This document shows, one piece after another, positions 17,951 through 40,640 of a stretch of DNA of 43,216 bases (the first letter of the stretch is position 1; each line of letters starts with the position of its first letter). The DNA is from Ignavibacteria bacterium (GTDB lineage: Bacteria; Bacteroidota; Ignavibacteria; Kapaibacteriales; UBA4661): contig JAAFIV010000038.1 in the NCBI GenBank assembly GCA_013298775.1, forward strand, positions 1-43,216, given 5' to 3'. Both the position numbers and the translations under genes were made by a program. The notes under the pieces are model-generated. The model saw only the letters and a program-made list of their open reading frames with translations. It had not been told where the DNA came from and made no database searches.

Positions 17951-18081
17951 TAAGACTTTCGCAAACGACGCAGACAAGAGTGTCTGCGCTACCATTGAAT
18001 TCAAGTTTTACGCGCCTTCGGTAGCACAAACACTCCTGTCTGTGCCGCAAAATGAGCATTGTGGAAAGTCCTCATTGTAAG
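17951..18081. repeat. Dispersed element, family D (copy 1)
   Basis: Two palindromic cores face each other: GCAGACAAGAGTGTCTGCGCTACC from 17970 and GGTAGCACAAACACTCCTGTCTGTGCC from 18020. The ends GACTTTCGCA and the complement of GAAAGTCCT form imperfect terminal repeats. The closest copy is at 19491-19636. The rest of the gap up to 18355 shows no gene, only a 15-bp tandem repeat. Confidence 0.7.
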
Positions 18082-19490: not shown

Positions 19491-19636
19491 AGGACTTTCG
19501 CAAATGACGCAGACGCAAATGGCGCAGACAGGAGTGTCTGCGCTACCGCTTGATGCAGATTATACGCGTCTTCGATAGCACAGGCACTCTTGTCTGTGCT
19601 ACCAAACGAGTATTGTGCGAAAGTCCTCATTGTAAG
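19491..19636. repeat. Dispersed element, family D (copy 2)
   Basis: AGGACTTTCGCA (19491-19502) pairs perfectly with TGCGAAAGTCCT (19616-19627), a 12-bp terminal inverted repeat. Between them are the two opposing palindromic cores GCAGACAGGAGTGTCTGC and CACAGGCACTCTTGTCTGTG. The GACGCAGAC start of the first core is partly duplicated. CATTGTAAG follows the right end here and in copy 1, so the true element may extend a few bases further. Confidence 0.75.
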
Positions 19637-19703
19637 GATACACCCAAATCTAGCGCATTTGCGGCTATTATTTTTGTTAATTTTCCACTTGAATTCTTTT
19701 GCC

Positions 19704-20234
19704 ATGCACCCACGCGATATTACGCCCGCATACTTACAATCCCTTGTTTTTACGCAGCATTCCACGTTTAACGGTCCAACCATTCACGGAATGAAATACA
19801 AACAATTCCGCACCATTGTGGATGGACGCGGGGATGTTATCGAACTCTGGAGCTTGCCATGGGTGGAGCGGGAAGGCGTGATTATTCCTCAGCATGTGTA
19901 TCAGTCGGCGACGGATTATGGCGTGATTAAAGCGTGGCATCTGCACGACATTCATACCGACCAATTTACCGTTACGCGTGGTAAAATGCAGGTCGTCTGC
20001 GTTGATATTCGCCCCAATTCCCCTACGCACGGACACGTCAATTCCTTCATCATCGGCATCCAGAACCCCGCAATGATACTCATTCCGCCAGGTATTATGC
20101 ACGGTTGGAAAGCATTGTCGCAGCCAGAAACGATAGTGGTAAATTTGCAATCGCACCCCTACGACCCCGCCGATGAATTTAAGTATGAGTGGGATTGCGT
20201 TCTCAGCAATGTGTGGGAACCGAAATTTGGGTAG
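19704..20234 (+). CDS. dTDP-4-dehydrorhamnose 3,5-epimerase-like cupin
   Basis: The 176-residue product, started at the ATG at 19704, has the RmlC double-stranded beta-helix. The segment KAWHLHDIHTDQFTVTRGKM (76-95) corresponds to the active-site RGLH.Q region, followed by VVCVDIRPNSPTHG and the IPPGIMHGWKAL pattern. H79 would be the candidate catalytic histidine. RmlC epimerises C3 and C5 of dTDP-4-keto-6-deoxyglucose in rhamnose synthesis. The usual RGLH is changed to KAWH, so a related sugar-nucleotide epimerase is equally possible. No rmlABD neighbours are seen. A longer in-frame start at 19590 lies within a dispersed repeat and was rejected. Confidence 0.75.
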   Translation: MHPRDITPAYLQSLVFTQHSTFNGPTIHGMKYKQFRTIVDGRGDVIELWSLPWVEREGVIIPQHVYQSATDYGVIKAWHLHDIHTDQFTVTRGKMQVVCVDIRPNSPTHGHVNSFIIGIQNPAMILIPPGIMHGWKALSQPETIVVNLQSHPYDPADEFKYEWDCVLSNVWEPKFG

Positions 20235-20276: not shown

Positions 20277-20400
20277 GGTGAACGCGGACAAGAGGACAAA
20301 GAGGAGTATGAGGAAGAAATGATGCTACAATTGAAAGAAAAAGTCCTCACAATCCTCTCAATCTGGGCTTCATCCGCATTCTCTGACGAACGTCCTTGCT
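20277..20400 (-). repeat. Dispersed element, family B (copy 3, degenerate)
   Basis: GAACGCGGACAAGAGGAC at the left and GTCCTCACAATCCTCTCAA..TCATCCGCATTC at the right match the internal part of the family B copy at 27870-28040 in the same orientation. The outer terminal repeats are not preserved. It fills part of the gap between the epimerase and transporter genes. Confidence 0.55.
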
Positions 20401-20439
20401 CGTTACAAAAATTGGATAAAAAAATTGGATAAACAGAAC

Positions 20440-20590
20440 CTTTGTACACGACAAAAACTCTGAGACACTTGTAAAATCAGGCTTCAGTGGCACAGGCATT
20501 CTTGCCTGTGTTCGTCGCTTGAAACTCGCACCAATACTCACAGACAAGAATGTCTGTGCCACTGTGAAAAAAGTATTGTCGTGTACAAAG
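20440..20590. mobile_element. MITE-like element, family C, with 9-bp target duplication
   Basis: A 151-bp element has perfect 15-bp terminal inverted repeats (CTTTGTACACGACAA at 20440-20454 and its complement at 20576-20590). It is flanked by an identical 9-bp direct repeat AAACAGAAC (20431-20439 and 20591-20599). Inside are two palindromic cores, CACAGGCATTCTTGCCTGTG and CACAGACAAGAATGTCTGTG. There is no coding capacity. Intact ends and an exact duplication point to a fairly recent insertion, 41 bp upstream of the MFS transporter start. Confidence 0.85.
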
Positions 20591-20631
20591 AAACAGAACA
20601 GTATTTTTAGATAAACACACCTACAAACCGC

Positions 20632-21927
20632 ATGAAACCACGCTTGAATTTTTGGCAAATCTGGAACATGAGTTTTGGATTTTTGGGTATTCAATTTGGC
20701 TTCGCACTCCAAAACGCGAATGTGAGCCGTATTTTTGAAACCCTCGGCGCGAACCCTGATGAAATCCCGATTCTCTGGATTGCCGCACCCACAACGGGCT
20801 TGCTCGTACAGCCAATTATCGGCTATATGAGCGACCGCACGTGGGGAGGCTTAGGGCGGCGGCGACCATATTTTCTCGTCGGTGCAATACTCGCCTCGCT
20901 CGCGCTCATTGTCATGCCAAATTCCCCCACGCTTTGGATTGCTGCGGGTTTGCTTTGGCTCATGGATGCGTCTATCAATGTCTCTATGGAGCCATTTCGC
21001 GCACTTGTAGCGGATATGCTGCCTTCCGAGCAGCGTACCACAGGCTTTGCGGTGCAGAGTTTTTTTATTGGCACAGGCGCGGTAATAGCTTCTGCCTTAC
21101 CGTACATGCTCACAAATTGGTTCGGCGTGAGCAATACGGCTGCAAAGGGCGCGATTCCGCCATCGGTGGTGTGGTCGTTTTATTTGGGAGCAGCAGCATT
21201 TCTGGGAGCGGTGATTTGGACAGTTGCCACAACGAAAGAATATCCACCAGAAGATATGGCAGCTTTCGAGCGTGAACGTGAGGCGCAGAGCGGCTTGCTA
21301 CATGGTGCGAAGGAAATTTGGGAAAATCTTTTCCAAATGCCCAAAACAATGCTCCAGCTCGCAGTGGTGCAGTTTTTCTCGTGGTTCGCGCTTTTTTCTA
21401 TGTGGATTTACACCACTGCCGCCGTTACAACGCGCATCTACGGCACAAGCGATACGAGTTCTGCCGCCTACAATGCTGGTGCAGACTGGGTTGGCGTATG
21501 TTTCGCGGTGTATAATGGTGCGGCTGCGCTCTTTGCCTTTCTCATTCCTCTTATTGCCGCAAAAACAAGCCGCAAAGCCGTCCATGCGATTGCGCTCGTG
21601 GCGGGCGGTATTGGTTTGGCTTCGATTTTTGTTGTTACCAGCCCGACGATGCTGCTTGTTTCTATGCTGGGTGTAGGCTTTGCATGGGCAAGTATTTTAT
21701 CCATGCCCTACGCCATGCTTGCAGGTGCCTTGCCAGCGCAGAAAATGGGAATCTACATGGGAATTTTTAACTTTTTTATTGTTATTCCGCAAATCACTGC
21801 CGCAGGAATTTTAGGCTTTTTTATGAAAAATATGTTTGGTAATCAAGCTGTGTACGCGCTGCTTTTGGGCGGCATTTCGATGTGCATTGCTGCGGCACTT
21901 ACGATGTTTGTGCAGGATGAGAACTAA
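20632..21927 (+). CDS. MFS sugar transporter (GPH/SLC45-like)
   Basis: A 431-residue inner-membrane carrier with about twelve hydrophobic helices. The loop between helices 2 and 3 carries [17 protein letters not shown] (64-80), the MFS signature in the form used by the glycoside-pentoside-hexuronide and sucrose/maltose proton symporters. A long cytoplasmic loop (about 205-235) divides the halves, and a second [20 protein letters not shown] motif fits the same group. Proton-coupled uptake of a disaccharide such as maltose or sucrose is likely; the exact sugar cannot be read from sequence. No glycosidase gene is adjacent. Its upstream region contains the family C mobile element, which could affect its promoter. 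Confidence 0.85.
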
Positions 21928-21956: not shown

Positions 21957-22078
21957 CGTGAGGCTCTCACGTCTTCGTGAGGGTCTCACTTCACCACAGA
22001 TATATTATTAGATGTATCAAAGTAGAGTGAGATGTACCAAAGGAAGTGAGAGCCTCATTAGGAAATGAGAGTCTCACG
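21957..22078. repeat. Long imperfect inverted repeat
   Basis: Arms of 36 bases (21957-21992 and 22043-22078) are largely complementary and themselves consist of two related GTGAG..CTCAC blocks, so each arm can also fold alone. The 50-bp centre is AT-rich. It lies between the transporter stop and the DUF1684 lipoprotein start and may serve as terminator or be another short mobile element. Confidence 0.65.
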
Positions 22079-40552: not shown

Positions 40553-40640
40553 GGAACAGACAAGAGTGTCTGTTCTACCGAAGCCGCATAAAATCTGACT
40601 CGGATGGTAGCGCAGACACTCCTGTCTGCGCCGCGTCAAA
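40553..40640. repeat. Dispersed element, family D (copy 3, short)
   Basis: GGAACAGACAAGAGTGTCTGTTCTACCGAAGCC and the opposed GGTAGCGCAGACACTCCTGTCTGCGCC are the two palindromic cores of family D. The AGGACTTTCGCA ends are missing. It fills the gap between nagZ and the small membrane protein gene. Confidence 0.7.

Follow-up and report, generated by a model that had tools for sequence, protein, structure and literature searches.

What is the 151-bp element that lies between two genes of an Ignavibacteria genome, which transposase moved it, and where does its interior come from? The element occupies positions 20440-20590 of the window, by which is meant the whole analysed stretch of 43,216 bp, contig C32 of a 5.19-Mb draft genome (99.2% complete, 95 contigs). 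The original prediction, made from the sequence, described perfect inverted ends of 15 bp and an exact target duplication of 9 bp, and all of this is confirmed at 20431-20599. Flank comparison places the duplicated 9-mer, AAACAGAAC, at 20431-20439 on the left and at 20591-20599 on the right, both read on the plus strand. The left terminal inverted repeat, CTTTGTACACGACAA, is found by end search at 20440-20454 (plus strand) and its reverse complement forms the right one at 20576-20590 (minus strand). With up to three mismatches allowed, the only matches to the 15-bp end in the window are the element's own two ends; 1.36 inexact matches are expected there by chance.

Within the ends is a 76-bp core (20487-20562, no strand assigned), bordered by a left subterminal segment at 20455-20486 (plus strand), whose core-adjacent sequence ATCAGGCTTCA recurs in other copies of this first family (F1), and by a right subterminal segment at 20563-20575 (plus strand), which by column identity is the most variable part among the 55 copies described below. 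Palindrome searches resolve the core into two 24-bp REP-like palindromes, GTGGCACAGRCATTCTTGYCTGTG and its inverse. Palindrome 1 (20487-20510, plus strand) consists of a GTGG head and the hairpin CACAGGCA-TTCT-TGCCTGTG; a 28-bp linker without assigned strand (20511-20538) separates it from palindrome 2 (20539-20562, minus strand), which is inverted and matches the consensus exactly. There is no transposase remnant in the interior, this inverted pair being present instead. Folded as single-stranded DNA, the element reaches -39.9 kcal/mol (z = -9.3), and none of 200 shuffles is as stable. It is preceded by a dTDP-sugar epimerase-like gene (19590-20234, PF00908); after it comes an MFS transporter gene (PF07690, 20632-21927), whose listed start is 41 bp from the element end. 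A minus-strand frame of 121 aa with a TTG start, at 20347-20712, is the one listed open frame that overlaps the element. Short, non-coding and bounded by perfect 15-bp inverted repeats, the 151-bp element has the build of a MITE.

The original prediction proposed a genome search for a full-length insertion sequence sharing these ends, and the same genome does contain one. It measures 1,179 bp and lies at G000:C14:80601-81779 (501-1679 of locus L061), with ends CTATGTACACGACAA and CTTTGTACACGACAA that face each other and differ from the MITE end by 1 and 0 mismatches. MITE and insertion sequence have the same outermost bases; deeper similarity was compared by eye only. The insertion sequence has one open frame, of 351 aa without an internal stop, and thus provides the transposase-encoding, full-length element with common ends that is expected for a MITE. 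The translated product scores 203.2 bits against the IS4-family profile NF033591 (cutoff 152) and 52.4 bits against PF01609 (cutoff 23), and the string YQQRWTIETLFASLK, read by eye, has the Y-2-R-3-E-6-K spacing that is presumably the IS4 family signature. Target duplications of the IS4 family are about 9-12 bp, and this insertion sequence is flanked by an exact 9-bp duplication, GGTACAGAC. IS4 had been among the candidate families named beforehand, and of these it is the right one. When the insertion sequence and one 9-mer are removed, what remains is a 175-bp MITE of a second family, which aligns with an intact copy (L233) at 94.857% identity over 175/175 bp with 0 gaps. The insertion sequence is therefore nested in the core of a second-family MITE, and within a palindrome A, as the 24-bp sequence of the core is called below. 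This is the only complete copy in the host genome; the other match is a 64%-identical fragment with two stops. As to the active transposase that had been supposed to exist elsewhere in the genome, an open frame is indeed present, and its activity is inferred only.

The ends are widely dispersed, and a search for further copies with 9-bp duplications, also proposed at the outset, was productive. Used as a genome query, the element gives at least 60 matches, 40 of 425 candidates having been scored; the closest other copy among the scored matches is 93% identical over 151 bp. The original prediction would have been in difficulty had no other copy shared the ends, and the genome has 140 occurrences (74 + 66) of the 15-bp end when up to two mismatches are allowed, against 19 (12 + 7) for the reversed control. 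A strict paired-end pattern at MITE spacing is found at 27 places, against 0 in the control. The 62 end pairs in the fetched loci reduce to 55 elements when overlapping alternatives and pairs longer than 200 bp are dropped; these 55 were drawn by best matches and first-listed ends and are a sample, not a census. Their 9-bp duplications are exact in 22, have one mismatch in 13, two in 6 and three or more in 14, so that 35 of 55 have at most one mismatch. When flanks of different copies are paired as a control, 0.08% are exact and 0.37% have one mismatch, together 0.45%. Dispersed copies with duplications of fixed length, a further mark of a MITE, are thus present. Among the 14 copies with three or more mismatches, 10-bp repeats at L146 and 8-bp repeats at L040 were noted by eye. 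The claim of recent movement, drawn from the exactness of the duplication, needs qualification: the recency is only a relative one, the nearest copy being 93% identical. Two variants of the ends were also seen, an end of one copy amplified into 14-bp tandem units (TTGTACATGATAAA, L141 430-514) and an additional end 14 bp inward at L049.

The best 35 duplications show base preferences, with T before the duplication in 28, G as its first base in 18, C as its last in 27 and A after it in 26, which points to a symmetric target T|GN7C|A (that is, T|GNNNNNNNC|A). The insertions are mostly outside long open frames, which contain 9 of the 55 copies compared with 1627 of 2000 random points of the window. 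Genes flanking the copies are convergent in 9 cases, divergent in 4 and in the same direction in 30, so there is no convergent preference. The empty site overlaps palindrome A or the related palindrome B in 7 of the 55 insertions; at L005 it is the core of another copy (104 bp, 88%, no gaps). Mean column identity over the 55 copies is 0.94 and 0.93 for the two ends, 0.82 for palindrome 1, 0.85 for the linker and 0.96 for palindrome 2. With these values, the notion of a core more strongly conserved than the ends was given up.

These observations lead to a mechanism that is predicted from sequence comparison. The MITE at 20440-20590 would be non-autonomous and depend on the 1,179-bp insertion sequence, whose IS4-family DDE transposase would recognise the MITE ends in trans. 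The enzyme would cut at these ends and join them to a target with a 9-bp stagger, preferably T|GNNNNNNNC|A; repair of the staggered target would generate the 9-bp duplication, and the 76-bp palindrome pair would be carried along as cargo. The window element is very probably an IS4-type MITE moved in this manner by its partner's transposase, a reading supported by the same-ended insertion sequence, by its own 9-bp duplication and by the restored 175-bp target; the many copies, the duplications on both kinds of element, the open transposase frame and the target preference are likewise direct observations. The mover would have been this enzyme, or else a near relative of it that has since been lost, and the core a passive passenger. 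Against the IS4 reading stand the single complete insertion sequence and one fragment, which are few for dozens of MITEs, the 14 of 55 copies with at least three duplication mismatches, and the lack of strict co-occurrence of insertion sequence and MITE among related genomes.

Palindrome A is found genome-wide 286 + 281 times with up to two mismatches, and palindrome B (GTAGCGCAGACACTCTTGTCTGCGC), which is related to A and has a GTAG head where A has GTGG, 143 + 138 times with up to three mismatches, although the counts for A and B may overlap for intermediate forms; the control gives 0 for each. Palindrome-B-like repeat pairs with GTAG heads inward and a start-to-start distance of 53 bp are seen in the window at 17968-18045, 19522-19599 and 40554-40631. 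A REPIN or BIME is marked by REP palindromes that are paired in inverted orientation and present in many copies, and the core has this feature; its layout, with 28 bp between the inverted palindromes, corresponds to that of REPINs as far as the consulted part of a published description goes (PMC3116915). An element spread by a REP-associated tyrosine transposase (RAYT), with the inverted ends merely incidental, is nevertheless very improbable. The genome does encode an open RAYT-like gene, one of two matches to Y1 transposases, the other being broken; the open one (192 aa, L093 1315-1893, minus strand) scores 66.1 bits against NF047646, below the cutoff of 80. Yet palindrome A, its variant and palindrome B, searched with up to seven mismatches, are absent from the 3,345 bp at L092 and likewise at L093, so that the association with a RAYT that is expected of REPINs is found at neither locus. 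The open gene is instead among 15 matches to GAAGTGAGACCCTCAC-type palindromes of its own, a family different from A and B. Since the only open RAYT-like gene is flanked by other palindromes, it appears that MITEs spread the core as their cargo. The exact 9-bp duplications adjoin the inverted ends and not the core, and by these outer-end duplications the RAYT reading is largely refuted. Palindromes of GTGAGGSTCTCAC type, the same kind as those around the RAYT-like gene in L093, are present in the window at 21958-22077.

The core is not confined to the IS4-type MITE. A second family (F2), with ends GGTACTAAATGATTTCAGTTGGAA that occur 26 + 28 times in the genome (control 0), has the core in 19 of 20 elements examined; its target duplications are 8 bp, exact in 10 of these 20 and with one mismatch in 5, against 0.3% in the cross control. 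A third (F3) has ends GGAAGGCTCAAAAATTAA and GGAATGGTAAAAAATTAA, with 18 matches for GGAAGGCTCAAAAATTAA (control 0), and identical 3-bp flanks in 12 of 13 elements compared with 34 of 156 in the cross control. One palindromic core is thus common to three MITE families that differ in their ends and in the length of their duplications. The consensus cores of F1, F2 and F3 (the last from 12 of the 13 elements) are near-identical and differ at few positions.

The core sharing may be due to end exchange, gene conversion or repeated capture. A single capture of the core followed by end exchange or gene conversion among the families is given about an even chance. The mean core distance between F1 and F2 (0.162) is smaller than that within F1 (0.175), the smallest distance between families is 0.013, and the same multi-base palindrome variant is present in all three (many F1 copies, L244 in F2, L309 and L312 in F3), all of which, with the near-identical consensus, is consistent with one origin. 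The remaining mean distances are 0.089 within F2, 0.114 within F3, 0.168 between F1 and F3 and 0.132 between F2 and F3. Physical encounters are also on record, namely the IS4-type insertion sequence inside an F2 core and an F1 MITE inside another core. The cores nevertheless group partly by family: of 83 cores, 58.9 have their nearest neighbour in their own family, while shuffling gives a mean of 38.4 and a maximum of 51.0, and mixing of cores among families is therefore incomplete. Cores of only 76 bp carry little phylogenetic signal, which weakens any phylogeny drawn from them.

It is rather unlikely that three insertion-sequence-derived pairs of ends separately captured the core from palindrome pairs that were free-standing and abundant, perhaps with an advantage because a double hairpin insulates or terminates transcription. 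In favour are core copies in which the ends of none of the three families can be recognised (L114, L126, L296, L297 and L299 are examples) and the predominance of insertions outside long open frames. However, many core copies that seem free-standing at first look have decayed first-family ends, and free cores may therefore be decayed MITEs. The list of free cores is moreover biased to perfect palindromes, because exact matches to palindrome A come first in it, and is no measure of the core's resistance to decay. The gene orientations given above, without convergent preference, lend an insulator or terminator no clear support, nor does covariation: in the local hairpins of 38 gap-free 151-bp copies among the 55, one cell changed on both sides, a score reached by 13 of 500 shuffles, which gives no support for covariation. 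Long-range pairing of the arms has 23 cells changed on both sides, a score that 0 of 500 shuffles reach; a selected long-range structure is not claimed, as the double changes are largely in four rows with the same palindrome variant in both arms.

The distribution in related genomes was followed in a panel of 61 (own genome, genus, family and order). The MITE query has matches in 5 of the 61, all of the same genus, and the transposase query in 10. Co-occurrence is not strict. In genome G004 the transposase is present at 86% identity (one match contains a TGA) and the MITE query finds nothing; MITE copies are present in G005 and G006, where the transposase matches are weak and broken (best 40% and 34%). 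Repeats may be missing from some of these genomes because the assemblies are drafts. G005 is Candidatus Kapaibacterium sp. PH2015_12D_48_15, as L229 of the named record and L089 of G005 are identical over 3,151 bp, and the host shares its genus. Conservation of the same element in distant relatives, which would have spoken against the original prediction, is not observed: in seven genus relatives, where this side is rearranged, no element was seen upstream of the downstream gene. Homology upstream of that gene begins within the flank or the gene in these seven, with unrelated DNA above, so that none of them shows the window copy's orthologous site cleanly empty. G005 was considered for such a site and failed, its two flanks being on different contigs.

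Scanned with the pattern, named genomes yielded 56 stretches, which contain 57 elements. Nine are in the Kapaibacterium record and all have the same core; the 48 elsewhere, in Saprospiraceae, Desulfobacterales, Chlamydiae, Gammaproteobacteria and other hosts, are without it. A 9-bp duplication with at most one mismatch flanks 36 of the 57 (7/9, 14/15 and 15/33 by batch). The end type is therefore widespread and the interior local. IS4-type MITE ends with 9-bp duplications and host-specific interiors occur in several phyla (L177-L232), and GTCATTCCCGC-type palindromes are found inside Legionella and Anaerolineales loci of such MITEs. The suggestion that all IS4-type MITEs have hairpin cores was weakened: with ends cut off, the 15 Saprospiraceae elements have z values of 0.5 to -2.9, the nine Kapaibacterium elements -2.1 to -8.6, and other hosts vary.

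Bacterial MITEs derived from insertion sequences include RUP (from IS630-Spn1), MITEPsy1 (from ISPsy2) and MITEAba12 (PMC2229807, PMC3189936, PMC6382973). In the parts of these accounts that were consulted, the elements resemble the present one in a short non-coding body, inverted ends that match a full-length insertion sequence of the same genome, a target duplication and a stable stem-loop. They differ in that here the ends are of IS4 type with a 9-bp duplication and the interior is a palindrome pair common to two other families; the consulted portions of PMC2229807 and PMC3189936 describe no interior common to several families. Titles and abstract openings likewise yielded no core common to several MITE families, which is weak evidence of absence as few subscription papers were covered. 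The partner's transposase scores above the NCBIfam IS4 cutoff and the partner has a 9-bp duplication, whereas the MITE itself has no transposase. REPINs consist of two REP palindromes in inverted orientation (PMC3116915), and one REP family has a GTGG head, a variant of the GTAG tag (PMC3733652); to the extent that these sources were consulted, the core is like a REPIN or BIME in its inverted conserved palindromes and more variable linker, and perhaps in its GTGG head. It is unlike them in not being near the RAYT-like genes of the genome and in being enclosed by MITE ends of DDE type, with duplications of 9, 8 or 3 bp. Some insertion sequences target REPs, as does the IS4-family ISRm22, with 9/9 copies in REPs according to the consulted part of the report (PMC1525189). 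The partner, too, sits in a palindrome A, and 7 of 55 MITE sites overlap A or B; most MITE sites are elsewhere, the preference being for T|GN7C|A and for non-coding DNA relative to random window points.

Taken with its same-genome partner, the MITE is an ordinary new member of the insertion-sequence-derived MITEs. The usual picture of bacterial MITEs is that of insertion sequences with internal deletions, and in contrast to it one small palindromic module is found here within three unrelated sets of ends. It is suggested, tentatively and at somewhat less than even chances, that a double-palindrome module which no transposase of its own moves has come to form the interior shared by three MITE families served by three different putative transposases, passing among them by recombination or end exchange, so that its spread may outlast the loss of any one of them. 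The origin of bacterial MITE interiors was left open in an earlier account, as far as the consulted part shows (PMC2229807). If the suggestion is upheld, it would become testable where such interiors originate, and by what route REP-like repeats attain copy numbers in the hundreds when no matching tyrosine transposase is present.
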